From Bryobacterales bacterium (lineage in GTDB: Bacteria > Acidobacteriota > Terriglobia > Bryobacterales > Bryobacteraceae), in the NCBI GenBank assembly GCA_003167255.1, contig PMTR01000179.1, positions 1 through 39,953 on the forward strand: DNA of 39,953 nucleotides. Reading direction: 5' to 3'. A program made the translations under genes and the position numbers. The notes below the pieces were generated by a model. That model did no database searches. It worked only from the letters and a program-made list of their open reading frames with translations, and was not told the DNA's origin. This document shows, one piece after another, positions 5,122 through 39,866 of the stretch (within the stretch, counting starts at the first letter, position 1; the number at the start of each line of letters is the position of its first letter).

Positions 5122-5132
5122 CCGGTTGACGG

Positions 5133-7366: not shown

Positions 7367-8329
7367 CTAGCAACCAGCCACTACGTTCTGCGGCAGGCCG
7401 TCGAGCCAAGCCCGGATGTTCTCCACGGCCAGGCGCAAGCCGGCTTCCATGGCTTCCGGCGTAATGCCGGCGCAGTGCGGGCTGAGAACTACGTTGGCCA
7501 TCCGTGTCAGGGGATGAGCGGGCGGCAGCGGCTCCACCGCGAAGACGTCGAGGCCCGCTCCGGCGATGCGGCCGTTCGCCAGCGCGTCCACCAGGGCGGC
7601 TTCATCGACAATCGCGCCGCGGGCCGTGTTGATCAGAATGGCGGACGGTTTCATGAGGGCGAACTGCGCCGGGCCGAGGAAGCCGGTGGTTTCAGGCGAG
7701 AGGCGCAGGTGCAGGCTGACGACGTCGCACGCGCGATAGAGTTCGTCCAGCTCCACCAGTTCGACACCCGGCATTGGCTTGGGGTGCATGGTCCAGGCCT
7801 GCACCCGCATGCCGATGCCACCGGCCAGCCGGGCAAATTGCCCGCCGACGGCGCCGAGGCCAATCACGCCGCAGGTTTTTCCGCGTAGCTCGATGGATTG
7901 GCCGCGCGGCCAGCCGCCGGCCCGCGTGGCGGCGTCCAGTTGCGGAATGTGGCGCGCCACCGCGAGCAGCAGCGCTACCGCATGTTCCGCGATCGAGATG
8001 GCCGAGACCCCCGGCGTATTGCAAACGGTGACGCCGTGGCGGGCGGCGGCCGCCAGATCCACGTGGTCGGTGCCGGTTCCCCAGAGCGAAAGCAGCCGCA
8101 ACCGCCTGCAGGCGGCGAAAACCCGTTCGCCGAATTTGGAGGACGCGCGAATGTTGAGAACCACTTCGGCATTCGCGATGCGCTCGATCAGGCGTTCCTC
8201 CGATCCAGGCAGGCTGTCGTGATAATCGATGTGATGCGCCGCCAGTTCCGCCCAGACCGCGCTCGCGCGCAGCACCGGAGGGGCATCGTCGGGAATGCAG
8301 ATGGTCGGCCGCAAAATGGCTCTTTTCAT
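7367..8329 (-). CDS. D-isomer-specific 2-hydroxyacid dehydrogenase, NAD-binding
   Basis: 320 residues, start ATG at 8329. The dinucleotide motif is GVIGLGAVGGQFARL. The catalytic set of the family is visible: Arg in INTARG, Glu in LDVFAVEPLP and His in LSPHCAGIT. The N-terminal substrate domain has ANAEVVLNIRASSKF and LSLWGTGTDHVDLAAA. Family members include 3-phosphoglycerate, glyoxylate/hydroxypyruvate and formate dehydrogenases. The length of about 320 and the lack of an ACT domain exclude a standard SerA with a regulatory tail, and the substrate cannot be fixed from sequence alone. It is cytoplasmic. It diverges from the VOC protein gene, with 49 bases between the starts, so the two may share a promoter region. 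Confidence 0.9.
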   Translation of the reverse strand: MKRAILRPTICIPDDAPPVLRASAVWAELAAHHIDYHDSLPGSEERLIERIANAEVVLNIRASSKFGERVFAACRRLRLLSLWGTGTDHVDLAAAARHGVTVCNTPGVSAISIAEHAVALLLAVARHIPQLDAATRAGGWPRGQSIELRGKTCGVIGLGAVGGQFARLAGGIGMRVQAWTMHPKPMPGVELVELDELYRACDVVSLHLRLSPETTGFLGPAQFALMKPSAILINTARGAIVDEAALVDALANGRIAGAGLDVFAVEPLPPAHPLTRMANVVLSPHCAGITPEAMEAGLRLAVENIRAWLDGLPQNVVAGC

Positions 8330-9654: not shown

Positions 9655-9732
9655 ATCCGCGGTACACAGCTTGGTACGGCCGTGGCTCCGCGCGAAGCCG
9701 CGAGCGAACGGCGTTCTAAAGAGGTTGATGAA

Positions 9733-9830
9733 AGAGGCTTAGCCGCCGATGAACGCAGATTAACGCAGATTGAAAACAAGGAATTTATCCGCGTTCATCG
9801 GCGGCTGAAATTGGGTTTTTCAGCATCCTG
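9733..9830. repeat. Dispersed ~100-base inverted repeat, copy 2
   Basis: Second copy of the unit at 5133-5240. Here the outer arms are a perfect complement over 15 bases (GCCGCCGATGAACGC at 9742 and GCGTTCATCGGCGGC near 9791), and the end TTTTCAGCATCCTG is shared. It lies between convergent genes, directly beside the stop of the cytochrome fusion gene. Confidence 0.8.
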
Positions 9831-9836
9831 CAAAAT

Positions 9837-10697
9837 CTACTGATTCATCTGGTTCAAAAAACTCACGACATCCTGAATCTCGGTCTCTTCCAGGGATGGC
9901 GGTGGCAACTTGAGGGCCGTGGCGCGCTGGCACATTTTCTGCTCGGCCCGCGCCAACCGCGTGGCCAGCATTACTGTATTCAACAGCCGCCCTGCCGCGT
10001 GCAGCACTGGCCCGCGCCGGCTTCCTTCGCCGTGCGCGCCATGGCACGCGCTGCAGCCGCTTCCGGCGAATGCCGAAGCCCCCGCGCGCGCCGACCCGAC
10101 CCGCGCCCTGGCCGGCTGGGTGGCCGCCGGACGCAGAATGTGCCGCTTGCCTGCGCCGGTATCGAGGCTCGGCGCCACCAGTTCCTCTACTGTGTATTCC
10201 GGCTGGTCCATGTCCCGAGCCCCGTGGTCACGGGTCTCGGCGAAGATATGATCGAACTCGTGCGCCAGCACGCGTCCGATCGCTCTGCCCAGCACCTGGT
10301 CGCGCTCCCGCGCCGGCCAGGCGAGCAGTTGTTTATGGACGAACCCCAGAATGCTGTCGCAGTCGATTCCCGCGAACGGCAGCACCTTTCCATCGCTGAC
10401 CTGGCTCCATCCCAGCCGCGTTCCCCACTCTGGCTGGGTGGGCGGGTTGGCGCCCGTGCAGTGGCCTTGAAATGTCACCACCGCTATGGCCGACGAAACA
10501 TCACTTCCCGTCGAGGGCAAGTTTTTCCACTGGAGACGAAGCCCCGCGGGCGCCATCAGAGCCGAAGCCTCTTCCTGGATGGCGCTCAACACGGCCTTGG
10601 AAGGCTCGTGTTGGAATTGGGTATAGATCGCGATCGATCCTACTTGGCTGCTCCCTGGCAACGCGGCCAGCAGAAGGCAGCAGAAAGCGCGAGTCAT
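9837..10697 (-). CDS. Exported zincin-like domain fused to cytochrome c
   Basis: 286 residues, start ATG at 10697. A short signal peptide (about 1-17) leads into a metalloprotease-like domain with LAHEFDHIFAETRDHG, where His146, Glu147 and His150 form an HExxH motif and His158 is a possible third zinc ligand. The C-terminal domain from about residue 205 is a class I cytochrome c with the haem site C215-S-A-C218-H219 followed by GAHGEGSRRGPVL. EIQDVVSFLNQ at the end is the usual last helix. The axial methionine is probably in the EQKMCQR region. Export is consistent with haem attachment in the periplasm. Proteins with the N-terminal domain alone occur in Acidobacteriota; the haem fusion is less usual. 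A ribosome-binding AAAGGAG lies about 16 bases upstream. Likely downstream in an operon with the GH2 gene (73-base gap). Confidence 0.8.
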   Translation of the reverse strand: MTRAFCCLLLAALPGSSQVGSIAIYTQFQHEPSKAVLSAIQEEASALMAPAGLRLQWKNLPSTGSDVSSAIAVVTFQGHCTGANPPTQPEWGTRLGWSQVSDGKVLPFAGIDCDSILGFVHKQLLAWPARERDQVLGRAIGRVLAHEFDHIFAETRDHGARDMDQPEYTVEELVAPSLDTGAGKRHILRPAATQPARARVGSARAGASAFAGSGCSACHGAHGEGSRRGPVLHAAGRLLNTVMLATRLARAEQKMCQRATALKLPPPSLEETEIQDVVSFLNQMNQ

Positions 10698-13235: not shown

Positions 13236-13295
13236 GGTTGGCAGGCGAAAGCGCCTGCCCCACAAAAGTGGGACAGACGCTTTCGTCTGTCAACC
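13236..13295. repeat. Head-to-head REP pair (BIME-like)
   Basis: Two hairpins facing each other: 13236-13263 on the minus strand (stem GGCAGGCG/CGCCTGCC, tail AACC) and 13268-13295 on the plus strand (stem GACAGACG/CGTCTGTC, tail AACC). They are separated by AAAA between the CCAC and GTGG heads. The second stem differs from the first at two positions on each arm, and both changes keep pairing. Confidence 0.85.
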
Positions 13296-25834: not shown

Positions 25835-27079
25835 TCAGGCGATTTTGACTTCTCTTTCGACGGCGTCGGCGAAGACGTCGATCTCTTTCAGGGTGGTGTA
25901 GATATTAGGAGTGATGCGCAGGCCGGTGTACTCTTCGTTTCCTATGGTGGAGGTATAGATGCTGTATTTATTGACCAGCGCGGCGCCGAGCTTGCCGGGA
26001 TCGATGCCGTTGAAGGCCAGGAAACCGATGCCGCAGGATTGCGCGGGGTCGGGGCTGTGCAGAATCTTGCATTTTGGATTCTGCGCCAAGCGGAGCGCCC
26101 AGCGGTCGCGAAGGTAGCGGAGTCGCGCGGCCTTGCGATCGATGCCGATGTTGTCGTTGAACACCAGGGCTTCCGAGATGGCGTTGAGATTGGCGGCGGG
26201 ATGGGTGCCGATCTCTTCGAACTTCCGGATGTCGTCTTTCTGCGTGGCGCCGGAAGCCATCAGGGACCAGGTGGAAGCGATGCGGGACTTCTTTACATAG
26301 AGGAAACCGGTGCCGACGGGGGCGCAAGTCCACTTATGCAGACTTACTCCGTAGTAATCGCAATCGAGGTCGGAGATCTTATAAGGGAAGTGACTGAAGG
26401 CGTGGGCGCCATCGACGATCACGGGGATGCCGCGGGCGTGGGCCATATCGCAGATGCGGCGGACGGGGAAGATCTGGCCGGTACGGTTGGTGATGTGACA
26501 GAAGAGGATGAGCCTGGTTTTGGGCGTGACGGCCTGCTCGAAGAGGCGAACCAGAAGATCCATGCCGGGGTTGGGAACGGGGAAGGAAATCATTTTGAGG
26601 ACGATGCCATCGCGGCGCTCGCGCTGTTTGAAGGTTTCGATCATGCGGGGGTAGTCCTGGTTGGTGGTGAGGACTTCGTCGCCGGGCTTGAGGTCGATGC
26701 CGTACTGGGCGTTTTCGAGGGATTCGGAGGCGTTGCGGGTGATGGCGATTTCCTCGGGATCGCAGCCGGCGTATTGGGCGAGGCGGCGGCGGACGGCTTC
26801 GAGCTGCCGGTACAGCACATTGACCATGGTGGGATAGGGGCCCATGTCGCTGTAGTCGAGGTAGCGGCGCATGGCGTCCTGGACGGTGCGCGGCGAGGGG
26901 CTGACGTAGCCGTTGTTGAGATTGATGAAATTGCGGTCGATGGAGAAGGCGGAGCGGATCTCAGACCAGTAGTCTTCGTCGGTGGCGACGTCTTCGGGGG
27001 TGCGGCCACTGACCGCGGCGGAAGCGGCGGCGACAGCGCTGGCGCCCAGCGCGAGTTGGAAAAAGTTGCGGCGATGCAT
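25835..27079 (-). CDS. Tat-exported class V aminotransferase-fold PLP enzyme
   Basis: 414 residues from the ATG at 27079; a longer frame starts with TTG at 27175 but lacks a signal sequence at its start. The N-terminus HRRNFFQLALGASAVAAASAAV is a twin-arginine signal. The PLP fold is clear: NLNNGYVSPSPRTV, ITRNASESLENAQYGIDLKPGDEV, FCHITNRTGQIFPV, VIVDGAHAFSHF and the PLP lysine Lys249 in SLHKWTCAPVG. The sequence is closest in pattern to isopenicillin N epimerase-like and cysteine desulfurase-like members. Tat export makes sense for a protein folded around its cofactor. The substrate is unknown; epimerisation or cleavage of amino-acid derivatives outside the cytoplasm is possible. Confidence 0.88.
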   Translation of the reverse strand: MHRRNFFQLALGASAVAAASAAVSGRTPEDVATDEDYWSEIRSAFSIDRNFINLNNGYVSPSPRTVQDAMRRYLDYSDMGPYPTMVNVLYRQLEAVRRRLAQYAGCDPEEIAITRNASESLENAQYGIDLKPGDEVLTTNQDYPRMIETFKQRERRDGIVLKMISFPVPNPGMDLLVRLFEQAVTPKTRLILFCHITNRTGQIFPVRRICDMAHARGIPVIVDGAHAFSHFPYKISDLDCDYYGVSLHKWTCAPVGTGFLYVKKSRIASTWSLMASGATQKDDIRKFEEIGTHPAANLNAISEALVFNDNIGIDRKAARLRYLRDRWALRLAQNPKCKILHSPDPAQSCGIGFLAFNGIDPGKLGAALVNKYSIYTSTIGNEEYTGLRITPNIYTTLKEIDVFADAVEREVKIA

Positions 27080-27190
27080 GAGAAGCGGCCTCCTGACTGC
27101 CGGTTTTTCGATGCTATAGCAGTGGCGGGAGCAAAGCAAGGGGATGGTCAGCGGTGTGTCAAATTGCGGTGACAAACAGGAAACTGTTTA

Positions 27191-27260
27191 TTCAACGCGG
27201 AGGCGCGGAGACGCGGAGAAGAAGAAGCAAAGTCAAGACCTGAGAGCGCAGAGGAAACGG
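27191..27260. repeat. GCGGAG-rich low-complexity repeat
   Basis: AACGCGGAGGCGCGGAGACG followed by GAAGAAG and AGAGCGCAGAGGAAACGGAG. A shorter relative lies at 19152-19184. No coding or hairpin function is visible. Confidence 0.5.
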
Positions 27261-27309
27261 AGACTGCTGGTCTCAGGAAGCTACGAAGAAATCGGGCGTT
27301 AACGGGGCG

Positions 27310-27333
27310 GGCAGGCGGCACCGCCTGCCCCAC
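27310..27333 (-). repeat. REP hairpin (loop GTGC)
   Basis: Stem GGCAGGCG/CGCCTGCC as at 2432 but loop GTGC instead of CTTT, GTGG head on the minus strand. It sits seven bases past the end of the DNA glycosylase gene. Confidence 0.8.
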
Positions 27334-27340
27334 CGCGGCG

Positions 27341-28255
27341 TCAACGGCGCTTCAAGGCTTCGAGCTGGTCGAGGGAGCGCGGCCAATCTTCGCGCAGGAG
27401 GCGGGAGAGGGCTCGGTCGGCGAGAAGTTTACCGTTGGTCTGGCAGGGGGCGCAATAGTTGGTTTCGTTGGAAGCGTAGCGGATGCGCTGGATCGGTGCG
27501 CCGCAGCGGGGGCAGGGAAGGCCGTAGCGGCCGTGGACGGCCATGCCTTCGCGGAAGGCGGTGACCTTCTCGGGGAATGCGCCGAGGGATTGGGCGCGCA
27601 GCCGGCCGGTCCATTCGACGAGGGTTTCGCGCGTGGCGGCGTAGAGCTGCGCGATGTGGGCGGGAGGGAGTTTTTGGGTGAGCGCGACGGGCGAGAGGCG
27701 CGCGCGATGGAGAATCTCATCGGAATAGGAGTTGCCGATGCCGCTGAAGATGTGCGGGTCGGTGAGCGCTCGTTTGAGGGTGTGATTGGCGGATTGTAGG
27801 GCGGCGGTGAAAGCGGGGAGTGAGGCTGCGAGAACTTCCAGGCCGCCGGCGTCGAGTGAACGGAGGGCATCGGGGCCGGAGAGGACGTGGAGCGAAGCGC
27901 GGTGTTGGGCGCCGGCTTCGGTAAAGGTAAGGGTGCCGGTATCGAAGGAGAAGGCTGCGAGGAGTCCGCGGGCGGCGGCGGGTTTAGCGGCGGGTTTGGC
28001 AGGAGCGTCGCGCCAGTGCAGCCGGCCGGCGATCATGAGGTGCAAAGCGAGCCAGAGGTGGTCCTCGAGGCCGATGGCGATGCGTTTGCCAACGCGGAGG
28101 ATCTGGCAAACAGTCTTACCGTGGGTGGCTTCGACAGGCGGTGCGGTGGAGCGCAGAAGGAACGGACTGAGGATGGTGACGCGGTTGAGGCGGTGTCCGA
28201 CGGTGCGGGCGGCAACGGCTTCGACGTAGAGTGTGACGTCGGGCAGTTCGGGCAT
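27341..28255 (-). CDS. Fpg/Nei family DNA glycosylase
   Basis: 304 residues from the ATG at 28255, giving the MPELPDVTLY start in which Pro2 is the catalytic nucleophile and Glu3 assists. The helix-two-turn-helix segment is HTLKRALTDPHIFSGIGNSYSDEILHRARLSP. The C-terminal zinc finger has the C4 pattern CPRCGAP and YCAPC. After it comes a conserved extension (LLADRALSRLLREDWP). The enzyme excises oxidised bases and nicks the abasic site. The finger lacks the usual Gln-Arg before Thr-Phe that contacts the orphan base, so it is a divergent member. It diverges from receptor A, and its first codons are duplicated at 32411 as part of the tandem duplication. Confidence 0.88.
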   Translation of the reverse strand: MPELPDVTLYVEAVAARTVGHRLNRVTILSPFLLRSTAPPVEATHGKTVCQILRVGKRIAIGLEDHLWLALHLMIAGRLHWRDAPAKPAAKPAAARGLLAAFSFDTGTLTFTEAGAQHRASLHVLSGPDALRSLDAGGLEVLAASLPAFTAALQSANHTLKRALTDPHIFSGIGNSYSDEILHRARLSPVALTQKLPPAHIAQLYAATRETLVEWTGRLRAQSLGAFPEKVTAFREGMAVHGRYGLPCPRCGAPIQRIRYASNETNYCAPCQTNGKLLADRALSRLLREDWPRSLDQLEALKRR

Positions 28256-28536
28256 ATTAATAGGATCGCATTTCGGTCGCAGTTGTCGGCACAATGTTGA
28301 AAATGTCGCCAGTTCTTGCAAGGGAGCGGCGTATTGGGTGGGCAGTGTTGGATTGTGCAACATCCGTATATTGATTGATTAAGATATTTTCATCGTTTTA
28401 TCTTGAAACGTATTTGGACTTGTGTTACTCCTAAGGCATTACCGTCTGGTTTTGGTGTCGCTCCGGATAGTTGTGCGTAAGCGGAGCGCGTGAAAATTCA
28501 GGGTCTATTTAAAAAAGGGAGTTGTGAGGTTATAAT
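28239..28536 (+). promoter_or_regulatory. Leader A: duplicated region upstream of receptor A
   Basis: About 298 bases running from codon 6 of the glycosylase gene to the receptor A start. It matches 32411-32708 with about 20 differences in some 275 aligned bases (hand count). It contains a conserved hairpin at 28459-28488 (CGCTCCG/CGGAGCG, 16-base loop) about 50 bases before the ATG, most likely in the 5' untranslated RNA, and AT-rich stretches suited to promoters between 28365 and 28410. Confidence 0.75.
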
Positions 28537-31500
28537 ATGACTCGTTTCCGTTTTGCGTTGTTGTTTGTGGCGGTCTTGTTGGCCGCGACATCCTTAAATG
28601 CCCAAGTCGCCAGTAGCGTGACGGGCACCGTGGTGGATCCATCGGGCGCCGCTGTTCCCGGCGCCACGGTGAGCCTGCAGTTGACAGGCAGCGGCAGCAG
28701 CCTGTTTACCACGAAAACCAGCGCCAATGGCGCGTTCGACATCGCGTCGGTTCCGCCCAATACCTACGACATCGTGGTTGAGTTGACGGGCTTCTCGAAG
28801 CTTGTCGTGAGCAAGTTGGTGGTTGAGCCCAGCCGCGTCACCGACGTGCAGACGCTGAAACTGGCCATCGCGGGCGCCACAGAATCGGTGGAAGTCAGCG
28901 AAGCCGCTACCACGGTGCAGACCACCAGCTCCGATGTCTCCACCACCATCACCAAAACACAAATGCAGGACCTGCCGACCATGAACCGCAGCCCGCTGGG
29001 ATTCCTGCAGTCGCAGGCGGGCATCAACGACGCGCGCGGTTCCACCACGGTGGACGGGCAACGGTCCAGCTACGTCAATGTCACATTGGACGGCATCAAT
29101 ATCCAGGACAACTTCATCCGTACCAATGACATGGATTTCCTCCCGAACCTGTTGCTGCTCGATCAAGTGGCGGAAGTCACTGTGTCCTCTTCCAACGCCG
29201 ATGCCTCCGCATCGGGCGGATCTTCACAGGTGAATTTTGTGACGCCTTCCGGGACCAATCAATACCACGGGGCGCTGTACTGGTCCAATCGCAACAGTAA
29301 ATTGGCTGCCAACTCCTTCTTCAACAACGAGTCGAACACTCCGAATCCGCATCTCAACCAAAATCAGCTCGGTGGCAAGATTGGCGGCGCCATCATCAAG
29401 AACAAGCTCTTCTTTTACATCAACTATGAGGCGTACCGTCAAAAGGAGCAGACCACCCAAAACCACACGGTCCTGACACCCAATGCCCGCAATGGCATCT
29501 ACACCGAAAGCAACGGGACCCAGGTGAATCTCCTGGGTTTAATGAACGTGCAGCAGAACTCCGTGATGCAGGGCTTTCTGGCGAAAGTGCCCACCACCTA
29601 TAACAACTTCAACGCTGGCGATTCCAGCGCCGCGCTCCTCCGCAACACCGCGGGCTACCAGTTCAACGTGCGCGACAACCGCACACGCGACAACGTCACC
29701 GGCAAGTTCGACTACAACCTCTCCACCAAGAACAGCTTGAGCCTGACCCTGATCTACAATCGCGACATCCTGGACCGGCCGGACCAGGACGGCACCTTTG
29801 ATACGGTTCCCAACGTCACGAATGACGATGTCACGCGGCTGTTTTCGTTAGGCTGGCGCTACAACCCGCTCCCCTCGTTGACCAACGAGGTGCGGCTCGG
29901 CTTCAACCTGGCTCCGGCCCTCTTCGTATCGCAACCTGAAGGACCCGGCTTTTTCGTTACTGGCATGTCCTACAGCAACCCCATCAATACGTTTCTTTCG
30001 CAGGGCCGGTACACGAACACCTACAATGGGTCCGACAAGGCCGCATGGATACACGGGAACCACTCCGTGCAATTCGGCGTTACCGGGCAGAAGATGACCA
30101 TTCGGGCCTTCAACTACGCCAGCATCGATCCCAGTTACGCGGTTGGTTTTGGCACGGGGAACCAGGGACTGGTCTCCACGCAGTTGCCGGGCGCCAGTTC
30201 CAGCGACGTGTCCTCGGCCAACACCCTGCTCGCAAGCCTGGCGGGCTACCTGAACACCAATACCCAGTTATTCAACGTTACCTCGCGAACCTCGGGCTAC
30301 GTGAACCAGGCGCCTAACCTCCGTAATTACGACATTTCGAACTACGGCGCCTATGTGACCGACACCTGGCGGGTGAAGCCCGGCCTGACGGCCACTCTCG
30401 GCGTGCGTTGGGAGCACTACACGCCGGTCGACGAGCAGGACGCCCTGGCCCTGCTCCCGGTGATGGAAAATGGCAATCCGATTAGCACCGTACTCGACCC
30501 GAACCTGGTCCTGAATTTCGCAGGAAGCGCCGTAGGCCGTCCGTGGTATGCAACCAGTTGGCATGAATTTGCTCCCAACCTGGGACTCGCATGGTCCCCC
30601 TTCAAGGATGGCAAGACCGCGATTCGCGCGGGCTACAGCATCTCCTATGTGGACGACAACCTGGCCTATGCATTGAGCAACAGCGCCGTGAGCACCAACG
30701 CCGGTCTCGCCACCACGGTCAGCAACACCGGCTTGAAGGGTTTCATCAGCAGCACGCCACCAGCGCTCACCGTCCCGACCTTCCAGGTGCCGCGGACACT
30801 GGCGCAGAACTATGCGCTGAACCCGTCGGGGAATGCAGTGGCCATGCCCGACCCGGGCCTGACAACCCCCTACGTGCAACAGTGGAACATCAGCGTCGAG
30901 CACAGCTTCAAGGACGTGCTTCTCAGCGTCCGCTACGTGGGCAACCATGGGGTCAAGGAAATCCGCGGTCTGGACTACAACCAGGTGGTCATCGGCGGGC
31001 TCCTCCCAAGTTTTCTGCAGGCGCAGAACAACGGCTTCCTGGCGCAAGCGAAGACTGGGTCGTTCAACCCCGCTTATAACTCGACCATCGCCGGCAGCGT
31101 GGCGTTGCCCTACTTCGCAGCCATGCCGAACGGCGGTTATCTGACTAACTCCTCCGTCATAAGCTACCTTTCGACGGGAGCGGTGGGAGAGTTGGCGAAC
31201 TTCTATCAATACAACGGCATCAACGGTTCGAACAGCTACTACAAGAACCCCAACACGCTGGGCGCCAACCTGCTGCAGAATTACAGCAGCAGCACCTACA
31301 ATGCCGCCGTTGTGGAAGTCATGAAACGTTTTTCGAAAGGTCTGTCCTTCCAGGCCAACTACGTATTCTCGAAGAATCTGAGCGATTCCCAAGGGGCCGC
31401 GGGGACGGACTTCGAGCCGTTGCTGGATATGAACAACCCCAAGATCGAGAAGGCGCGGGTGGCCGCCATGGACATCACCAACGTGTTCAAGGCCAACTTC

Positions 31501-32097
31501 AGCTACACCCTGCCGATGGGCACGGGCCACAAACTGAGCGGCAACTCGCTGGTGAACAAAGTGATCGGCGACTGGAAAATGGCCGGCATCTTTACGCTGC
31601 AATCCGGCACGCCGTTCTCCATTCTCTCCGGCCGCGCGACCTTAAACCGCTCCGCGCGCTCCACTTCGCTTAATACCGCGGACACTTCGTTGAACCTCGG
31701 CCAACTGCAGAGTCTCTTCCAGGTTCGCTCGACCGCCAACGGCCCGTACTACGTCGCCGCCTCAGCCATTGGCTCGGACGGACGCGCGGTCGCTCCGGAC
31801 GGAACCGCGGCATTCGCCGGCCAGGTCTTCACCGAGCCCGGCGCCGGGACTATCGGAACACTGCAAAAGGCAGACCTCAACGCACCAGGGGTGTGGAATC
31901 TCGATTTCATGGCCTCCAAAGAGGTCAGGATCACGGAGAGCAAAAGTGTCCAGATTCGTATGGACAGCTCAAACTTCTTCAACCATACGACGTGGTACGT
32001 CGGGGACCAGACCCTCACCTCCACCACCTTCGGCAAGATCACGAGCCAGTACTACGGCAACCGGCTGATCCAGTTCGGCCTGTACCTTAAGTTCTAG
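28537..32097 (+). CDS. TonB-dependent receptor, Oar-like (receptor A)
   Basis: 1186 residues. A signal peptide (about 1-22, ending SLNAQ) precedes a carboxypeptidase-regulatory-like domain (about 25-105: VTGTVVDPSGAAVPGATVSL, GAFDIASVPPNTYDIVVELTGF). The plug domain follows (about 115-235: PTMNRSPLGFLQSQAGI, VTLDGINIQDNF, VAEVTVSSSNADA, GTNQYHGALYW). The rest is a 22-strand-type outer-membrane barrel with many aromatic-ended strands (YGAYVTDTWRVKPGLTATLGVRWEHY, FQANYVFSKNLSDS), and the last strand ends IQFGLYLKF. This is the large Oar-like class typical of Acidobacteriota, thought to import or handle oligosaccharides and other large solutes. The ligand is unknown. It shares leader and downstream flank with receptor B. 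Confidence 0.92.
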   Translation: MTRFRFALLFVAVLLAATSLNAQVASSVTGTVVDPSGAAVPGATVSLQLTGSGSSLFTTKTSANGAFDIASVPPNTYDIVVELTGFSKLVVSKLVVEPSRVTDVQTLKLAIAGATESVEVSEAATTVQTTSSDVSTTITKTQMQDLPTMNRSPLGFLQSQAGINDARGSTTVDGQRSSYVNVTLDGINIQDNFIRTNDMDFLPNLLLLDQVAEVTVSSSNADASASGGSSQVNFVTPSGTNQYHGALYWSNRNSKLAANSFFNNESNTPNPHLNQNQLGGKIGGAIIKNKLFFYINYEAYRQKEQTTQNHTVLTPNARNGIYTESNGTQVNLLGLMNVQQNSVMQGFLAKVPTTYNNFNAGDSSAALLRNTAGYQFNVRDNRTRDNVTGKFDYNLSTKNSLSLTLIYNRDILDRPDQDGTFDTVPNVTNDDVTRLFSLGWRYNPLPSLTNEVRLGFNLAPALFVSQPEGPGFFVTGMSYSNPINTFLSQGRYTNTYNGSDKAAWIHGNHSVQFGVTGQKMTIRAFNYASIDPSYAVGFGTGNQGLVSTQLPGASSSDVSSANTLLASLAGYLNTNTQLFNVTSRTSGYVNQAPNLRNYDISNYGAYVTDTWRVKPGLTATLGVRWEHYTPVDEQDALALLPVMENGNPISTVLDPNLVLNFAGSAVGRPWYATSWHEFAPNLGLAWSPFKDGKTAIRAGYSISYVDDNLAYALSNSAVSTNAGLATTVSNTGLKGFISSTPPALTVPTFQVPRTLAQNYALNPSGNAVAMPDPGLTTPYVQQWNISVEHSFKDVLLSVRYVGNHGVKEIRGLDYNQVVIGGLLPSFLQAQNNGFLAQAKTGSFNPAYNSTIAGSVALPYFAAMPNGGYLTNSSVISYLSTGAVGELANFYQYNGINGSNSYYKNPNTLGANLLQNYSSSTYNAAVVEVMKRFSKGLSFQANYVFSKNLSDSQGAAGTDFEPLLDMNNPKIEKARVAAMDITNVFKANFSYTLPMGTGHKLSGNSLVNKVIGDWKMAGIFTLQSGTPFSILSGRATLNRSARSTSLNTADTSLNLGQLQSLFQVRSTANGPYYVAASAIGSDGRAVAPDGTAAFAGQVFTEPGAGTIGTLQKADLNAPGVWNLDFMASKEVRITESKSVQIRMDSSNFFNHTTWYVGDQTLTSTTFGKITSQYYGNRLIQFGLYLKF

Positions 32098-32122
32098 CCC
32101 GGAAACCTCGCGCTTTTTTTAA

Positions 32123-32173
32123 GCCGGGGAGCCGCGGTCCCAAGTGGCCGCGGCTCCCCGGCATTTTCTTTTC
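32123..32173 (+). terminator. Rho-independent terminator of receptor A
   Basis: A perfect 15 bp stem (GCCGGGGAGCCGCGG at 32123-32137 with its complement at 32148-32162), a 10-base loop and then ATTTTCTTTT. It lies 25 bases after the stop codon. Confidence 0.9.
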
Positions 32174-32292
32174 AGGGAGCCGGCCTGCCGCCCCAACGGC
32201 GCTGTAAGGCTTGCATCCAGGCCAAATGCGCGCAGAATTGGGATGAAGATAGCCGGACCTTAGTACATGTTAGAAGGTAGAGGAGCTTAGGT

Positions 32293-32433
32293 ATGAACCT
32301 CTCGATTCTGACCGTAGCGGTTGTTCTGGTTGGCGCACCCGCGTGGGTGGCCGCCGCCGATCTGGAAAGCACTTTCCAAAGCCTGAAGGACGCAGAAGCC
32401 AAGGGCGATGTCGGGGCAGTTCGGGCATATTAA
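32293..32433 (+). pseudogene. Truncated copy of the downstream exported helical-repeat gene
   Basis: Begins with the same MNLSILT start and signal peptide as the gene at 36775 and keeps the GAGG ribosome binding site. After codon 39 (AEAKGD) the sequence jumps into the start of the DNA glycosylase gene in antisense, ending at a TAA after VGAVRAY, 46 codons in all. The first 118 bases and about 55 upstream bases match 36720-36895 with about 16 differences in 180. It is the left junction product of a tandem duplication. It could still be translated into a short exported peptide. Confidence 0.85.
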
Positions 32434-32708
32434 TAGGATCGCATTTCGGTCGCGGTTGTCGGCACAATGTTGAAAATGTCGGCAGTTCTTGCAAGGGAGC
32501 GGCGTATTGGGTGGGCAGTGTTTGATTTTGCAACATCCGTATATTAATTGATTAAGAGCTTTTCATCGTTTTATCTTGAAACTGATCTGTACTTGTGCTA
32601 CTCCTAATGGCATCACCGTCTAGTTTTGGTGTCGCTCCGGCTAGTTGTGCGTAAGCGGAGCGGATGAAAATTACGGGTCTATTTAAGAAATTTAGGGGGT
32701 TGTAAGGT
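32411..32708 (+). promoter_or_regulatory. Leader B: duplicated region upstream of receptor B
   Basis: Near copy of 28239-28536. It contains the first five codons of the glycosylase gene on the minus strand and then the whole intergenic region. The hairpin is kept at 32633-32662 with both arms unchanged and the loop altered at two positions. Confidence 0.75.
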
Positions 32709-35700
32709 ATGAGAAGAATATTCGCATTGTTGGCTCTGTCTGCGTGCATTGCTTTTGCACAGACAGCAATCACCACTGCGCGAATGGACGGGACAGTCAC
32801 GGATCCGCAGGGCGCAGTCGTCGTCGGCGCGGAAGTGACCGTCGTCAGCGCCAACGGAGCAAGTTTCAAAGCCACGACCGATGAGCACGGGCAGTGGGCA
32901 CTGCCGAGCATGCCGCAGGCGACGTATCGCGTCAGCGTTACGATGAAGGGCTTCCGCACCACGGTGGTCGATCGCGTGGTGATGGAACCCGGCATTCCGG
33001 TGACGGTCAACGCCAAGCTGGAAATCGGATCGATGACCGAGACGGTGGAGGTATCCGGCACCCAGGAACTGGTGCAGACCAGTTCCGCCACGGTCAACAA
33101 CAGCCTGGAAAAACGGCAGATGACGGAACTGCCGATGCTTTCGCGCAACGGTCTGGACATGCTGATGTCCCTGCCTGGGATCCAATCAGGCAGCGCCAAC
33201 CGCAATTCCACCATCAACGGTCTTCCCAGCGGAGCGATCAGCATTACCGTGGATGGTCTGAACACCCAAGACAACACCCTCAAGAGCAGCAGCGGCAGCA
33301 GCTATTTCACCTACATCCCGATTCTGCAGGACTCCGTGGAGGAAGTGGTGTTGAGCGGAGCGGCCGCCAACGCAGATTCCACCGGGGAAGGCGCGGCCCA
33401 AGTCAAGTTTGTGACGCGCAGTGGAACGAACCAGTTTCATGGCGGCGCCTTCTGGCAGAACCGCAACACGGCCCTCACCGCCAATTCCTATTTCAATACG
33501 ATCAACCGTCTGCCTCGCAGCATTGTGAAACTCAACCAGTTTGGGTTCCACGTGGGAGGCCCGATCTATATTCCGAAAGTTCTAGACCTGAAGAACAAGC
33601 TGTTCTTCTTCACGAACGTGGAATTCCGCAAACTGCCGCAATCGGCGCCGTTCAGCCGCACCATCGCCACACCGGCCGCGGCCGCCGGCAACTACACGTA
33701 CCCGGATTCGGCGGGCGTACAGCACACGGTCAATGTGCTCAGCCTCGCCAAGACGGCCGGTTTTAACGGCACGCCCGATCCGATCGTGGCTCAGACGTTC
33801 AGCCAGGTGCTGGCGCTGACCGGTAACTGCGGCAGTCTCGTGAACAACATTCCCAACAGCGATTACGACACCAACACCTGCGCCTATAACACGGCCGGCA
33901 CGGACCGGCGCCACTTCTCCATGACCCGCTTGGATTACAACCTGAACAGCAAGAACCAGGTTTCGATTACGTACAGCTATAACATGTACAATGCCGTTCC
34001 GGACGTGCTGAACAGCGTTGTGCCGATCTACCCGGGCACCGGCGACATCCTCGGCACCACCGTCGCCACCGGCCAAACCAGCAATCGCTTCATGGGCACG
34101 ATTGCGCTGCGATCCACTATCACGTCGCACCTGACCAACGCCTTCCAGGGCGGGCTCAATGGCGGCACCGTGGTGTTCGGCGCAGGTGCTTCGTCCCCGG
34201 CCAATTATGCGGAATGGAAGGGCTATATTCCCTATTTCGCTTTCGGCCTGGGTTCGACGACCACCACGGGGATCAGCAGCGAAACCAGCCCGCAGAGGCG
34301 CAACGACCCGGTGAAGCAGCTCAGCGACACCTTGTCGTGGTTGAAGGGCTCGCATATGATCACCATAGGCGGCGATTTCGCGCAGATCAACTATTGGGGC
34401 CAGTACTTCGGCAGCGAGACTTTTCCCGGCATCACCTTCAGTATCGCTAGCGGCGACCCGGTGCATACCGGCAGCACCGATGTATTCAACACAACAGCCA
34501 TGCCCGGCGCCACGCAGACTTATATGGACAACGCCGCGGCCCTCTACGCCACCCTCACCGGCCGCGTCTCGTCTATCTCGCGGCAAGTGGTCGAGAGCGA
34601 AACCACGCATCAATACGGCAACGCTCCGTTGATTAACCGCGACCAGCAGCGCCAGTTCGGTTTCTTCGTGCAAGACCAGTGGCGCGTGGCCCCGAATCTG
34701 ACGTTCAGCCTCGGGGTACGCTTCGAGGAGCAGGGCCCCCCCAAAAACCTCAGCGGCACTTATACCGCGTCAACCATCCAGGCGGTTTACGGCATCTCCG
34801 GCATCGGCAACATGTTCAAGCCCGGCGTTACGACCGGCGGACTGACTCCGGTGGCGGGTGGCGCGGCCTATGCGCCAGCCATTCCGGCATTCCAGCAGCT
34901 TTCGACCATGAACGCCTATAACGTCCCCAACAGTTGGGATCCGAACGTTGGCCTCGCCTGGCAGATACCCACCTCGAACGGCTTGCTCCGCGCCCTTCTG
35001 GGCGATCACACGGGGAGCTCCGTGCTGCGCGCCGGCTTCTCCATTTCCACCATCCGGGAGAACATTGCCCAGTTGTCCTCCATGTACGGCAGCAACCCCG
35101 GCTTGACGTACCCCGCCAGCGTCGACCCCGTCAACTACCCGTCGGTCTTCGGCCAGCCGGGAAGCGTGCTTTTCTCGCAGTCAACGTTCCCGGTTATGCC
35201 GACTCCTACGGCGCCGACCTACCCCATGAACACGAGTCCCTCGACTTCCATCAACGCGTTCGATCCCAATTTGAAGCTGGGATACGTGGAGAGCTGGAAC
35301 GTGGGCTTCCAACGGGAGTTCGCGCACAACAACGTCATCGAAATCCGCTACCAGGGCAACCACGAAGTGCATGGCTGGCGGCAGGTGCAAGTTAATGAAC
35401 AGAACCTGTTCGAGAGCGGGTTCCTGACCGACTTCTACAACGCTTACAACAACCTGCTGATTGCTCGCGGCGGCAACATCCTCAACACCAACAGCAACAA
35501 CTTCAGCAACCAGGGACTGCCGGGTCAACAGCCTATCCCGATTCTTCAGACTGCCCTCGGCTCGCTGACCAATAACTCCTCCTACGCCACCTATCTCCGC
35601 CAGAACCGGGCGGGTAGCCTGTCGGGCGTGATCTACGCGAACGCCACCTACATGGGACGCCTGGTGGCGGCGGGCTATCCGGCCAACCTGTTCACCGTCA

Positions 35701-36623
35701 ACCCGTCGGTGGGCAGCAGCGGAGCTTGGCTGGTCGAGAATGGGAGCAGTTCGTTTTGGGACGCCGGCGTGATCGAATACCGGCGCCGTCTGGCCTCCGG
35801 GCTGCAATTCCAGGCCAACTACGTGTTTTCGAAGGGCCTCGCAAACGGCTCCACGGGCAACAGCAGTGTCTACTCCGAACCGACCACCTTCCGCAACCTG
35901 GCGCTGGACAAGCTGCCTCCGGGCTTCGACATTCGCCAGGCATTCAAGCTCAACTTCATTTACGAGCTGCCGTTTGGAGCCGGCAAGCCGTTCCTTTCCG
36001 GCAATGGCTTTTTGAACAAGGTCTTTGGCGGTTGGCAGATCACCGGCATCGATCGCAACCAGACGGGAACGCCCACCCAGCTTACCGCCAGCCGCGCCGG
36101 CATGAACGGCAGCGACACCGGCGTGGTGCTGGAAAACATGACCACGGCGCAACTACAAAGCATGATGGCCATCACCAAGACGACCGGTTCTAACGGTATT
36201 GGTCAAGTCTGGTGGCTGCCGAAGTCGCCGACAGGCACGGCCGCGGGCAGTACCTTCATCAACAACTCCCAGGCCGCCTTTGAAGCCAGCGGCTATAACT
36301 GGACCAACATCAACGTGAGTTCACCTTACGTGGCTCCGCAGTTGGCGCCCGGCAAGTTCGGCTACCGGGTGTTCATCTATGGCCCGATGCAGAACCACTT
36401 CGACACCAGCCTGAGCAAGCGGGTCACTTTCGCCCACGAAAAGGCCAACCTGTTGATTCAGGCCAACTGCCTGAATTGCCTCAACCTGACCGACTTCTAT
36501 CTGGCTAACGTCAACCCGTCGAGCAGTAGTTTCGGCCTGACGACCAGCGCATACACCGACATCTCGAACACGAACGATCCGGGCGGCCGGATCGTCGAGT
36601 TTATTGTGCGCGTGAACTTCTAA
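32709..36623 (+). CDS. TonB-dependent receptor, Oar-like (receptor B)
   Basis: 1304 residues. Signal peptide about 1-18 (ending AFAQT). A carboxypeptidase-regulatory-like domain is at about 25-105 (MDGTVTDPQGAVVVGAEVTVV, GQWALPSMPQATYRVSVTMKGF). The plug is at about 115-240 (LPMLSRNGLDMLMSLPGIQ, ITVDGLNTQDNTLK, EVVLSGAAANADSTGEGAAQV). A long barrel follows and ends IVEFIVRVNF. It aligns with receptor A in order of domains and in landmarks such as SGTNQFHGGAFWQNRN and LQFQANYVFSKGL, but most positions differ and it is 118 residues longer. Leader and downstream DNA are nearly identical to those of receptor A. It probably recognises a different ligand. Confidence 0.92.
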   Translation: MRRIFALLALSACIAFAQTAITTARMDGTVTDPQGAVVVGAEVTVVSANGASFKATTDEHGQWALPSMPQATYRVSVTMKGFRTTVVDRVVMEPGIPVTVNAKLEIGSMTETVEVSGTQELVQTSSATVNNSLEKRQMTELPMLSRNGLDMLMSLPGIQSGSANRNSTINGLPSGAISITVDGLNTQDNTLKSSSGSSYFTYIPILQDSVEEVVLSGAAANADSTGEGAAQVKFVTRSGTNQFHGGAFWQNRNTALTANSYFNTINRLPRSIVKLNQFGFHVGGPIYIPKVLDLKNKLFFFTNVEFRKLPQSAPFSRTIATPAAAAGNYTYPDSAGVQHTVNVLSLAKTAGFNGTPDPIVAQTFSQVLALTGNCGSLVNNIPNSDYDTNTCAYNTAGTDRRHFSMTRLDYNLNSKNQVSITYSYNMYNAVPDVLNSVVPIYPGTGDILGTTVATGQTSNRFMGTIALRSTITSHLTNAFQGGLNGGTVVFGAGASSPANYAEWKGYIPYFAFGLGSTTTTGISSETSPQRRNDPVKQLSDTLSWLKGSHMITIGGDFAQINYWGQYFGSETFPGITFSIASGDPVHTGSTDVFNTTAMPGATQTYMDNAAALYATLTGRVSSISRQVVESETTHQYGNAPLINRDQQRQFGFFVQDQWRVAPNLTFSLGVRFEEQGPPKNLSGTYTASTIQAVYGISGIGNMFKPGVTTGGLTPVAGGAAYAPAIPAFQQLSTMNAYNVPNSWDPNVGLAWQIPTSNGLLRALLGDHTGSSVLRAGFSISTIRENIAQLSSMYGSNPGLTYPASVDPVNYPSVFGQPGSVLFSQSTFPVMPTPTAPTYPMNTSPSTSINAFDPNLKLGYVESWNVGFQREFAHNNVIEIRYQGNHEVHGWRQVQVNEQNLFESGFLTDFYNAYNNLLIARGGNILNTNSNNFSNQGLPGQQPIPILQTALGSLTNNSSYATYLRQNRAGSLSGVIYANATYMGRLVAAGYPANLFTVNPSVGSSGAWLVENGSSSFWDAGVIEYRRRLASGLQFQANYVFSKGLANGSTGNSSVYSEPTTFRNLALDKLPPGFDIRQAFKLNFIYELPFGAGKPFLSGNGFLNKVFGGWQITGIDRNQTGTPTQLTASRAGMNGSDTGVVLENMTTAQLQSMMAITKTTGSNGIGQVWWLPKSPTGTAAGSTFINNSQAAFEASGYNWTNINVSSPYVAPQLAPGKFGYRVFIYGPMQNHFDTSLSKRVTFAHEKANLLIQANCLNCLNLTDFYLANVNPSSSSFGLTTSAYTDISNTNDPGGRIVEFIVRVNF

Positions 36624-36641
36624 CCACCCTGTATTCCGAAG

Positions 36642-36680
36642 CGGGCCCGGCGGCGTAAATGCTTCCGGGCCCGTTTTGCG
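36642..36680 (+). terminator. Rho-independent terminator of receptor B
   Basis: Stem CGGGCCCGG (36642-36650) with CCGGGCCCG (36665-36673), 14-base loop, followed by TTTTGCGTTT. It differs entirely in sequence from the terminator of receptor A. Confidence 0.8.
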
Positions 36681-36774
36681 TTTACGGAGGCTTGCATTGT
36701 GAGGCAAGAACGCGCAGAATTGGGATGAAGATATTTGTGCCTTAATACAGGTTAAAAGGTAGAGGAGATTAGGT

Positions 36775-37686
36775 ATGAACCTCTCGATTCTGACTCTAGC
36801 GGTTGTTCTGGTTGGCGCACCCGTGCCGGTGGCCGCCGCCGATCTGGAAAGCACTTTCCAAAGCCTGAAGGACGCCGAAGCCAAGGGTGATGCCGCGCTG
36901 GTGAAAAAACTGGCGGTGGAAACCGGCGCCATGGCGAAAGCGGCTGCGGCCGAGGCTGCTCCGGCCGACGCCGACGAAAAGCAAGCCTGGACCGACCGGG
37001 TGAAGTACGCGCAGGACGTCCAATCCTATACCGAGTACGCGCTGTACGCAGTGGCCGTAAAGGGGCCCGCGGCCACGACGGTGGATCTGATGTCGACGCT
37101 CGAAGAACAGAATCCCAAGAGCAAGTATCTGGACCAGGGGTATGGCACTTACCTGGGGGCCTTGGAGCAGACCGGCGCTTCCGCGAAGATTCCGGCAGTA
37201 GTCGAGAAGGGCCTGCAGAACCTCCCGGAGAACGAAGACCTCTTGCTGGTGGCGGCCCGAAATGCGCAGGCAAAGCAGCCCGACAAGGCGCTGGCTTATG
37301 CCAATCGCCTGGTTGCGGCGGCCAACAAGCACACCAGGCCGGAGAACATCGCGGCCGCCGACTGGGACCGGAAACACAATATTTCTCTCGAGTATGGTCA
37401 CTGGATCGCCGGTGTGATTCACGGCGAGAAGCAACAGTACCTGGCGGCCGACAAGGATTTGCGCGCCGCGCTGCCGCTGCTCAAAGGCAACGACGCCATG
37501 ATGGGGCCGGCATTGTTCCATCTGGGCATGGCCAACTACAATCTGGGCAAGATGACCAACAGCAAAGCCAAAGTGCTGGAAGGCGCCAAGTTCAGTGAAG
37601 ATTGCGCCAAGATCACGGGACCATACACCGACCAGGCGTGGCACAACGCCCAAGTGATGAAGACCGAAGCCGGCCAGATGCGGTAG
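36775..37686 (+). CDS. Exported helical-repeat (TPR-like) protein
   Basis: 303 residues, ATG at 36775 with GAGGAG upstream. Signal peptide about 1-22 (ending VAAAD). The mature protein is almost wholly helical with TPR-like spacing: LESTFQSLKDAEAKGDAALV, YTEYALYAVAVKG, LLLVAARNAQAKQPDKALAYANRLV, DLRAALPLLKGNDAMMGPALFHLGMANYNLGKM. No enzymatic motif is visible. It likely acts as a periplasmic scaffold. It follows receptor B after a terminator and has a truncated twin after receptor A, so receptor plus this protein forms the repeated unit. A direct role in receptor function is an inference from this pairing. Confidence 0.8.
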   Translation: MNLSILTLAVVLVGAPVPVAAADLESTFQSLKDAEAKGDAALVKKLAVETGAMAKAAAAEAAPADADEKQAWTDRVKYAQDVQSYTEYALYAVAVKGPAATTVDLMSTLEEQNPKSKYLDQGYGTYLGALEQTGASAKIPAVVEKGLQNLPENEDLLLVAARNAQAKQPDKALAYANRLVAAANKHTRPENIAAADWDRKHNISLEYGHWIAGVIHGEKQQYLAADKDLRAALPLLKGNDAMMGPALFHLGMANYNLGKMTNSKAKVLEGAKFSEDCAKITGPYTDQAWHNAQVMKTEAGQMR

Positions 37687-37725
37687 GGCAAGCAGAGCCG
37701 GCTGCAAAGGGGCTTGCAGGAATTC

Positions 37726-37847
37726 GTGGGGCAGACCCCCAGGTCTGCGCGGGCCCCCTGGAACCGCTGTTCGCTCGAAGAATCAAGTCTTGCCATTCGC
37801 GGAAAGCCGGCCAGGGGGCCGGCTGCGGACGAGGGCGTCCGCCCTAC
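37726..37847. repeat. Outward-headed REP pair, one single and one double hairpin
   Basis: 37726-37748 on the plus strand: GTGG head, stem GCAGACC/GGTCTGC, loop CCCA; a second hairpin after it looks eroded. 37806-37847 on the minus strand: hairpins GCCGGCC/GGCCGGC and GCGGACG/CGTCCGC, both with loop AGGG, one T between, then CCTAC (GTAG head). It fills the gap between the helical-repeat gene and the peptidase gene. Confidence 0.8.
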
Positions 37848-37871
37848 TCCTGATATACTTCCCTTTCACTT

Positions 37872-39866
37872 ATGAAACTGTGCATTTACCTGGCTGCCCT
37901 GGTGCTGCCGCTCTGCGCGGCTGAGCCGGTTCGCTATGAACTGAAGTTTCCCAATGCGGCGCACCACGAGGCCGAAGTACGGGTGACGTTTTCGGGGGTG
38001 AAGCAGCCTTCGCTCGAAGTGCTGATGAGCCGGTCGTCCCCGGGGCGGTACGCGCTGCACGAGTTCGCCAAGAACGTTTACAACATCCGCGCCAGCGATG
38101 GGCAAGGCCGGGCGCTGACGGTGACGCAGGCGGCGCCGAGCGAGTGGAACGTGTCGGGGCACAAGGGGACGGTGGTTGTGGAGTACACGGTTTTTGGCGA
38201 TCGGGCGGACGGCACGTACGATGGCATCGACCCGACCCACGCGCATCTGAACCTTCCGGCGACGCTGATGTGGGCGCACGGATTCGAGAAGACGCCGGTG
38301 GTGTTGAAGTTCGAGATTCCGGCTGGGTCGGGATGGAAGATCGCGACGCAGCTCGCGCCACAGGACGACGGGACGTGGACGGCGCCGGGCATGGACCGCA
38401 TGATGGACAGCCCGGTGGAGATGTCGGCGCACGCGCTGCTGGAGTGGAAGGTGGGTAATTCGCAATTCCGCATGGCGCTGCATCACCGCGGCAACGACGA
38501 AGAAGCGGCCGCCTTCGCCAAGCTGTGCCAGGCGGTGACGGCGGAGGAAGAAGGGGTATTCGGCGCGTTTCCGAAATACGATACGGGCACCTATACGTTC
38601 CTGCTGGACTACCTGCCGTACGTGAGCGGCGATGGAATGGAGCACCGCAATTCGACCTCGATTTCCGGCACGCGCGATCTGCGCGATTCGGCCGCGGGGC
38701 TGATCGGGACGGTGGCGCACGAGTTTTTCCACTCGTGGGACGTGAAGCGCATCCGGCCGAAGACGCTCGAGCCCTTCAATTTCGAAGACGCCAACATGTC
38801 GGGCGAGTTGTGGTTCGCGGAGGGTTTCACGAACTACTACGGGCCGCTGGCGATGAAGAGGGCGGGCCTGGAGAGCATCGAGCGGTTTGTGCGTTCGCTG
38901 GGCGGGGCGGTCAACGCGGTGATGACGGCGCCGGGGCGGGAGATCTTCAGCGTGGTGGAGATGAGCCGGCACGCGCCGTTTATCGACGGCGCCGCGGCCA
39001 GTGACCCGACCAACAATACCAACAACATCATTTCTTACTACACCTACGGGGAGGCCATTGCGTTGGGGACGGACCTGGCCATCCGCGCGCAGTTTCCCGG
39101 CAAGAGCCTGGACGATTGGATGAAGGCCATGTGGCGGGCGCACCCGGACAGCGACAAACCATACACGCTCGACGGTTTGCAGCAGGCGCTGGCGGAAGTC
39201 ACGAACCAGGAATTCGCCGCCGATCTGTTCACTCACCATATTTACGGGAAAGAGCCGATGGATTACGCAAGCCTGCTGGCGCACGCCGGGATTCTGTTGC
39301 GCAAGGCCGCGACGCCCAAGGTGTGGATGGGCGTGCAGGGGATGGGTGGCCTGGCTTTCTCGGACCGCGGAGCCGACATCGCGGGGACGACGTTGCGCGG
39401 ATCGCCGCTCTACAACGCCGGGCTGGACCGTGGCGACCGCATCGTGACGTGGGAAGGCAAAGCCATCAAGACTCAGGCGGACCTGAACAGCTTCCTGGAG
39501 CCGCATAAACCGGGCGACCGCATCAAGCTTGAAGTGGAAACGCGGGGCGGGGCGAAGAAGGAAGTGGAGATGGAACTGGCGGGGCCGCCGGGATATGAGA
39601 CCGAGCCGTACGAAATGGCGGACCGGGAATTGACGGCCGGGATGAAAGCCTTCCGCGCCGCATGGCTGAGCTCGAAGGCGATTCATCCGGCGCCGGCTCC
39701 GGTGAAGTACTGCCCGACGTGCAAGCGGCCGCTCGCCTTCGAGTATCAAAACTGCCCGTATGACGGAGCCACCCTGCAGTTCACCGAGCATAGCTTCCCG
39801 GCGTTGCCGCAGAGCGGTAGCGCGGGCGGGGGGCGCGGCGGCCGCGGAGGACGGGGCGGGCAGTAG
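37872..39866 (+). CDS. Exported M61 family metallopeptidase with PDZ domain
   Basis: 664 residues with a signal peptide (about 1-18). The N-terminal beta-domain (about 20-170) is that of M61 glycyl aminopeptidases. The catalytic domain has VAHEFFHSWDVKRIRPKTLEPF with His283, Glu284 and His287, and Glu317 in WFAEGFTNYYG as third zinc ligand. NNIISYYTYGEAIAL and LDDWMKAMWR are also typical of the family. A PDZ domain covers about 475-570 (SPLYNAGLDRGDRIVTWEGKAI). Beyond the usual family end there is a half zinc ribbon (CPTC at 614-617 and CPYDG at 628) and a glycine-arginine tail. M61 enzymes cleave N-terminal glycine or other small residues. The role in the periplasm is unknown. Confidence 0.92.
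   Translation: MKLCIYLAALVLPLCAAEPVRYELKFPNAAHHEAEVRVTFSGVKQPSLEVLMSRSSPGRYALHEFAKNVYNIRASDGQGRALTVTQAAPSEWNVSGHKGTVVVEYTVFGDRADGTYDGIDPTHAHLNLPATLMWAHGFEKTPVVLKFEIPAGSGWKIATQLAPQDDGTWTAPGMDRMMDSPVEMSAHALLEWKVGNSQFRMALHHRGNDEEAAAFAKLCQAVTAEEEGVFGAFPKYDTGTYTFLLDYLPYVSGDGMEHRNSTSISGTRDLRDSAAGLIGTVAHEFFHSWDVKRIRPKTLEPFNFEDANMSGELWFAEGFTNYYGPLAMKRAGLESIERFVRSLGGAVNAVMTAPGREIFSVVEMSRHAPFIDGAAASDPTNNTNNIISYYTYGEAIALGTDLAIRAQFPGKSLDDWMKAMWRAHPDSDKPYTLDGLQQALAEVTNQEFAADLFTHHIYGKEPMDYASLLAHAGILLRKAATPKVWMGVQGMGGLAFSDRGADIAGTTLRGSPLYNAGLDRGDRIVTWEGKAIKTQADLNSFLEPHKPGDRIKLEVETRGGAKKEVEMELAGPPGYETEPYEMADRELTAGMKAFRAAWLSSKAIHPAPAPVKYCPTCKRPLAFEYQNCPYDGATLQFTEHSFPALPQSGSAGGGRGGRGGRGGQ

Follow-up and report, generated by a model that had tools for sequence, protein, structure and literature searches.

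Probable replacement of TonB-dependent receptor genes between the conserved edges of a doubled slot in a Bryobacterales genome

How do two neighbouring receptor genes come to lie behind almost the same upstream region when the receptors themselves are strongly diverged? The question is raised by an interval of the window (the whole stretch of 39,953 nucleotides that was analysed, from a soil bacterium) in which a leftward glycosylase gene is followed by a leader, a receptor gene (R1), a piece of a gene referred to here as gene X, a second leader, a second receptor gene (R2) and gene X itself (Table 1). The interval was compared with itself, with the same place in G001, the one same-genus genome among those listed (82% complete, 6% contaminated), and with receptor loci from further genomes.

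Layout of the slot and likeness of its edges

Self-comparison of the window resolved the interval into two tandem units, unit 1 at 28241-32413 and unit 2 at 32414-36895. The leaders (28241-28530 and 32414-32708) were 90.8% identical over 295 columns and the 3' edges (32207-32413 and 36688-36895) 88.0% identical over 208 columns, with E-values of 5e-114 and 2e-69, a likeness far beyond chance; global alignment gave 268/290 (92%) for the leaders and 182/207 (88%) for the 3' edges. Both analyses confirmed the reading of the initial annotation that the order glycosylase 5' end, leader, receptor and 5' end of a helical-repeat gene (gene X) occurs twice in tandem, and they fixed its extent. The glycosylase was read from MPELP, which puts its start at 28255 (assigned by eye), so just its first 5 codons (15 bases) fall in the repeat, the rest of that part being divergent intergenic region; gene X contributes about 39 codons and 86 upstream bases. 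Both receptors are predicted to be TonB-dependent receptors with a CarboxypepD_reg domain, as PF13620 and PF25183 scored above cut-off in R1 and R2, and PF00593 in R1 only. Gene X had no match in Pfam or NCBIfam.

Table 1. Features of the glycosylase-X slot, in window coordinates.
Feature	Position	Strand	Basis
Fpg/Nei-like DNA glycosylase, left neighbour of slot	27341..28255	-	Pfam Fapy_DNA_glyco, H2TH, zf-FPG_IleRS; 91% aa in G001
Leader copy 1: first 5 glycosylase codons and divergent intergenic region	28241..28536	+	repeat alignments
Receptor 1 (R1, 1186 aa): CarboxypepD_reg and outer-membrane barrel, TonB-dependent kind	28537..32097	+	PF25183, PF13620, PF00593
Terminator-like hairpin after R1, 17 pairs	32123..32162	+	terminator scan; alignment
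Truncated gene X remnant: 86 upstream bases and ~39 codons, ATG at 32293	32207..32412	+	repeat alignment; protein search
Fusion point of X remnant and glycosylase remnant	32410..32414	.	sequences side by side
Leader copy 2, with 5-codon glycosylase remnant at 32414-32428	32414..32708	+	repeat alignments
Receptor 2 (R2, 1304 aa): domain order as R1, distant clade	32709..36623	+	PF25183, PF13620; tree
G+C-rich hairpin after R2, common to the same-slot locus of G001	36643..36672	+	by eye; not flagged by terminator scan
Intact copy of the 3' edge repeat, extending into gene X	36688..36895	+	repeat alignments
Gene X (303 aa), right neighbour of slot	36775..37686	+	signal-peptide-like start by eye; 81% aa in G001

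The likeness between the units falls sharply at both ends of the receptors. In bins of 100 alignment columns, identity between unit 1 and unit 2 was 98, 90 and 85% along the leader, 35-61% across the receptors and 31% where the bin covers the R1 stop and hairpin, before rising to 68, 91 and 94% at the 3' edge. The leaders match as far as the ribosome-binding region and diverge within about 10 bases of the start codon, and the R1 and R2 proteins were 29% identical. The drops in identity beside the start codon and past the stop, which had been proposed as the mark of receptor exchange, were present. The flanks, which had been described as near-identical, were so in overall likeness, but the likeness was uneven, with more differences close to the receptor. 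In the leader there were 2/100 differences in the part far from the receptor versus 20/190 in the near part (p = 0.009, with the cut at 100 picked after the bins were inspected), and on the X side 8/121 far versus 17/87 near (p = 0.008). Pooling the two sides gave 10/221 versus 37/277 (p = 0.001), a test made after the bins had been seen and in which the far part on the X side is coding, so that coding constraint lies partly behind the gradient there. The likeness of the leader to that of G001 was 67, 64 and then 47% by part; as the first two parts are nearly equally like G001, constraint does not easily explain the gradient on the leader side.

The segment between the receptors consists of the upstream region of gene X and about 39 of its codons, a join, and five glycosylase codons with their intergenic region. 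A search with the gene X protein matched this middle piece, with internal stops, and comparison by eye at the junction (32410-32414) revealed few shared bases at most. Since truncated pieces of both neighbours are fused at one point, the doubling is one of the DNA itself, over a stretch that spans the slot, and neither shared promoters alone nor gene conversion of the edges alone is sufficient. Shared promoters as the sole cause of the likeness were accordingly ruled out by the X and glycosylase remnants. The initial annotation had offered receptor replacement or gene conversion restricted to the flanks; replacement is supported, but conversion by itself cannot make the fused pieces, and a doubling is needed in addition. 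These pieces point to one of two events: head-to-tail copying of the stretch from the glycosylase into gene X, or the joining of a second allele beside the first. Within the genome the two leaders share 92% of aligned bases, versus about 60% with the G001 leader, which indicates that the doubling is much more recent than the receptors.

An arrangement of this kind might also be produced in assembly from mixed strains carrying different alleles, and the genome is in 200 contigs. Its contamination, however, is listed as 0.37%, the slot region contains no N, and allele mixing, which usually gives bubbles or breaks in an assembly, would not be expected to link X to glycosylase across so few common bases. 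We therefore consider an artefact very unlikely.

Regulatory and recombination elements were also looked for around the slot. An Rfam scan of 27000-37900 gave three weak matches, all below gathering score and all outside the leaders, so a known RNA element in the leader was rejected. A terminator and promoter pattern scan gave no excess over shuffled sequence (10 versus 9.4 terminators, 3 versus 2.6 promoters); the hairpin after R1 was the longest stem listed in it, and alignment and scan showed no counterpart of it behind R2 or the G001 receptor. The promoter scan found no consensus promoter in the part common to both leaders, and the promoter that it flagged at 28508-28536 ends in bases without a counterpart in leader copy 2. 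The shared leader nevertheless suggests that both receptors may be under like control. Inverted repeats of at least 18 bases were absent from the edges (28000-37000), where the only two inverted pairs (18-21 bases, 81-89%) have all their arms within the receptor genes. As the edges carry direct and not inverted repeats at this length, inversion through the edge repeats was rejected, and the inverted repeats of 18 bases or more that would suit a site-specific receptor shufflon are lacking. No dedicated recombinase was found among the eight ORFs scanned.

The slot in a same-genus genome and the ancestry of the receptors

In G001 the slot is single, in the order aminotransferase (96% identity), glycosylase (91%), leader, receptor (56%) and gene X (81%), and the position and gene order of the slot, with its conserved edges, are the same. 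The slot table lists the flank genes at 96, 89 and 81%, and the 91% for the glycosylase is from the locus search; the glycosylase query against G001 was without its first residue. The leader was present in 2/61 genomes searched, the window's own and G001, the two leaders being 72% identical over 187 columns. Thus the search of relatives for the leader, from which the same leader with a different receptor had been predicted, found a related leader in front of a different receptor. The sequence bearing the hairpin after R2 is common to G001, the two being 79% alike from a point 18 bases past the stop. A different hairpin follows R1, and likeness between the units starts 110 bases after the R1 stop. 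These two different 3' boundaries point to at least two replacement events.

R1, R2 and the G001 receptor represent separate lineages of one receptor family. In a tree of 68 rows, R1 fell in a clade of 31 rows and R2 in a separate clade of 33 rows, both well supported, and the sister group of R2 consisted of receptors from two genus g71 genomes (SH-aLRT 100). R1 and R2 are not each other's nearest relatives in this tree, unlike the outcome of a simple tandem duplication. The G001 slot receptor paired with a receptor of G061 at 100/100, and a tree holding it with R1 was rejected (p-AU 0.000136; 16 rows from the 68-row tree, with rows and question chosen after that tree was seen). Taken with the R1 and R2 clades, the grouping with G061 places three receptor lineages in a single slot across two genomes. 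A clade of six rows does contain both R1 and the G001 receptor, so old paralogy with loss is a less remote explanation for these two than it is for R2. Among 237 genomes of the family, with two candidates scored per genome, the nearest relatives were 61% identical to R1 and 51% to R2, and no close donor was found for either; with best relatives at just these values, no recent swap is documented. Base composition was rejected as a mark of foreign origin, because the GC3 of the receptors (79.9 and 80.1) is like that of their neighbours (74.6-83.9 in six other genes measured).

These results bear on the idea that the whole unit was duplicated in tandem and that selection then drove the receptors apart rapidly, with little change at the edges. 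A doubling did take place, but R1 and R2 sit in deep clades with relatives in many genera and so are older than edges that are about 90% identical, which makes this history extremely improbable. The view of the initial annotation that simple duplication and divergence are inadequate is borne out by these old, separate lineages.

A different possibility is that R1 and R2 are two old neighbouring paralogs whose leaders were kept alike by selection or gene conversion. In line with it, genome G002 also has an R1-like receptor next to an R2-like one, and another tandem pair of receptors has a shared leader of promoter/operator size. However, neither slot neighbour was found in the 19.9 kb retrieved around the G002 pair, a range that extends about 10 kb past it in one direction and 2 kb in the other. 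G001, of the same genus, has one unit only, and the copies in the window include fused truncated pieces of gene X and glycosylase. This explanation, which the initial annotation had named as one that could overturn its proposal, fails on the truncated neighbour pieces joined at one point, and we hold it to be highly unlikely. Neighbourhoods of R1 relatives in four other genera (G257, G193, G082 and G061) contained no slot flank gene, although in the last three the contig ends near the receptor and one flank is missing; several R2-like receptors have a common neighbourhood of their own.

Replacement, doubling and known systems

The best reading of these results is that at least two receptor replacements took place at one glycosylase-X slot and that the slot was doubled in tandem. 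The glycosylase-X interval would be a slot for one large outer-membrane receptor gene, in which receptors are replaced by homologous recombination between the conserved edges while the upstream region is retained. The stretch from glycosylase codon 5 to about codon 39 of gene X would have been doubled head to tail by an unhomologous or short-homology join, so that two receptors with separate origins now lie side by side, each preceded by almost the same leader. We put the probability of replacement by recombination at conserved edges, plus a head-to-tail doubling that kept two receptors, at roughly 0.72. Replacement of the receptor between conserved flanks had been the central proposal of the initial annotation, and it is supported by the steps at the edges, the G001 receptor and the age of the receptor lineages. 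Homologous recombination is the most likely agent of the replacements, going by the pattern of identity.

The order of events could have been doubling followed by replacement of one copy, or a second allele may have been joined in one step, for example as a circle integrating through one crossover. Taken without any later replacement, the latter would mean that a piece from another strain, carrying glycosylase, leader, R2 and X, was put beside the resident allele. Such joining yields the same final order, the sequence after R2 also follows the G001 receptor, and edge differences of 8-12% could be differences between strains. On the other hand, the leader gradient described above (2/100 versus 20/190) fits replacement within a doubled slot better, and R2 would still need to have replaced another receptor in the donor; one-step joining is thus possible but not probable. 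The pattern of differences leans towards a second receptor that entered an already doubled slot rather than came with the doubling. A broader and more speculative version, which we think rather doubtful, is that the interval is a standing dock in this genus, where one retained leader is repeatedly given a new receptor, drawn from many lineages and from other genera as well, and that the doubled dock keeps an old receptor while trying a new one.

The rag locus of Porphyromonas gingivalis is reportedly the subject of a reference by Hall et al. from 2005. Like the slot, it is a TonB-dependent receptor locus with strongly different types; four ragAB types occur among strains, with RagA of types 2 to 4 sharing 58-69% with that of the reference type, whereas the receptors here are 29% alike and in tandem (PMC11817032). 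The types of the pyoverdine receptor gene fpvA in Pseudomonas aeruginosa are scattered over lineages and recombination has been suggested for them, as here, but they are matched to the strain's own siderophore type and the accessible portion of that paper describes no doubled slot (PMC2777410). The closest parallel in form is with replacement flexible genomic islands, in which different genes for exposed structures occupy the same place between conserved edges, homologous recombination is proposed as it is here, and substitutions are raised at the boundaries of exchanged surface islands (Lopez-Perez et al. 2014, PMC4033161). There, gene clusters are swapped between close strains and near-identical contents have been found, whereas here a single receptor gene is concerned, there is no close donor, and the slot is doubled with two persisting occupants (PMC4033161). 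As near-identical contents were not found in a diverged strain, the slot is not classed as a proven replacement flexible genomic island.

Solibacter is placed in Bryobacterales, and Candidatus Solibacter usitatus likely belongs to the same order as the window and the sister genome. Its genome is similar in having divergent paralogs from old transfer and duplication, with TonB receptors among the paralog groups tested, and slot-wise replacement is not described in the portion of that study available (PMC3174227). Exchange of surface genes at conserved edges and receptor types at a single locus are therefore known already. In open-licence literature, searched by titles and abstract openings, we found no description of a doubled receptor slot with unrelated occupants, which points to the doubled slot with two anciently different receptors as the new element, a form of known surface-protein exchange. 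If the reading is true, a slot with a fixed leader and a changing receptor would explain part of the receptor variety of this genome, in which the barrel family PF25183 has 75 matches, fragments included. The doubled slot would be a fossil of exchange, holding both occupants plus truncated neighbour pieces that mark the copied extent, and sequencing the interval across strains would allow a direct test of whether receptor turnover is driven by nutrients, toxins or phages.

Receptors at other places and repeat screens

Receptor neighbourhoods were retrieved from the window's genome and G001 and paired by flank genes, using 61 receptor ORFs of the window's genome (at least 250 aa, alike to R1 or R2). 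A receptor was present at the matching G001 place for 26/61, and 34 were without a matched place; one (L148_7) was dropped because it had a flank match but no usable receptor match, its likely partner being 89.6% identical. R2 (30%) and R1 (56%), both paired to the same G001 receptor, were the least alike of the 26. The other 24 had a median of 89% (range 63.1-95.5%), which makes the slot an outlier among matched places; the median for flank genes was 90.5% (81 reciprocal pairs). Just 2/24 of these pairs were below 70% (63 and 64%), and they are possible further cases of replacement. In the 64% pair (L148_6), the G001 partner gene is broken in two, and 4 N lie in that stretch. That G001 receptor region (L127, 8732-11447) is split in two ORFs and the copy in the window's genome is intact; given the 4 N, the split may reflect assembly quality. 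The receptor of L218 (6576-9764) was 63% identical to that of L208 between flank genes at 93 and 96%, with 84% at the N-terminus and falling thereafter, and this pair is a candidate for a second slot of this sort. The receptor of L142 (1422-4847) was 46-60% alike to that of L176 over the first 150 residues and 74-96% over the remainder, a possible swap of the N-terminal domain only.

Relatives of the 34 unmatched receptors were sought in the retrieved G001 loci: 4 had one at 90% or more, 3 had one at 58-67% and 27 had none above 45%, counts on which the incompleteness of G001 bears. The 27/34 indicate that plain gain and loss of receptors is common too.

Direct repeats were scanned over 141 retrieved loci (2.03 Mb), and receptors between repeats were screened with R1 and R2 as sole queries, so that distant receptors between repeats can be missed. 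Repeats outside the receptors flanked a receptor in L196 (93 columns, 80%), L139 (149 columns, 68%) and L132 (146 columns, 88%). Those of L139 and L132 lie near the 3' ends of minus-strand genes and so are not leaders, and a pair flagged as outside the receptor in L221 is on one side inside the receptor ORF. In L196 (G001:C70) the 93-column repeats are the leaders of tandem receptors that are 32% alike; this likeness is of promoter/operator size and stops short of the start codons, and regulation by itself could be enough to account for it. The suggestion that receptor swapping might be general is therefore weakly supported: few matched pairs fell below 70%, and the other tandem with a shared leader shares a stretch of promoter/operator size only.

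Several further repeats were noted. The match of L196 in the window's genome, L170 (G000:C162), carries a single receptor, together with a duplicated stretch that includes regulator-like genes (LacI-like by eye) and a leader. In L180 (G001:C124), the end of a receptor gene has a copy as a fragment about 3 kb away (7384-7566 and 10422-10604; 183 columns, 93%). In L221 (G000:C85) there are related receptor genes with a DNA likeness of about 67-68%, one of which, the second copy, is broken into pieces with other ORFs between. Within the window itself, an exact repeat of 28-31 bases occurs at four places in both orientations (2431-2459, 2579-2609, 3029-3059 and 13236-13264), and 5124-5240 and 9723-9830 form a direct repeat of 118 columns that is 82% alike.
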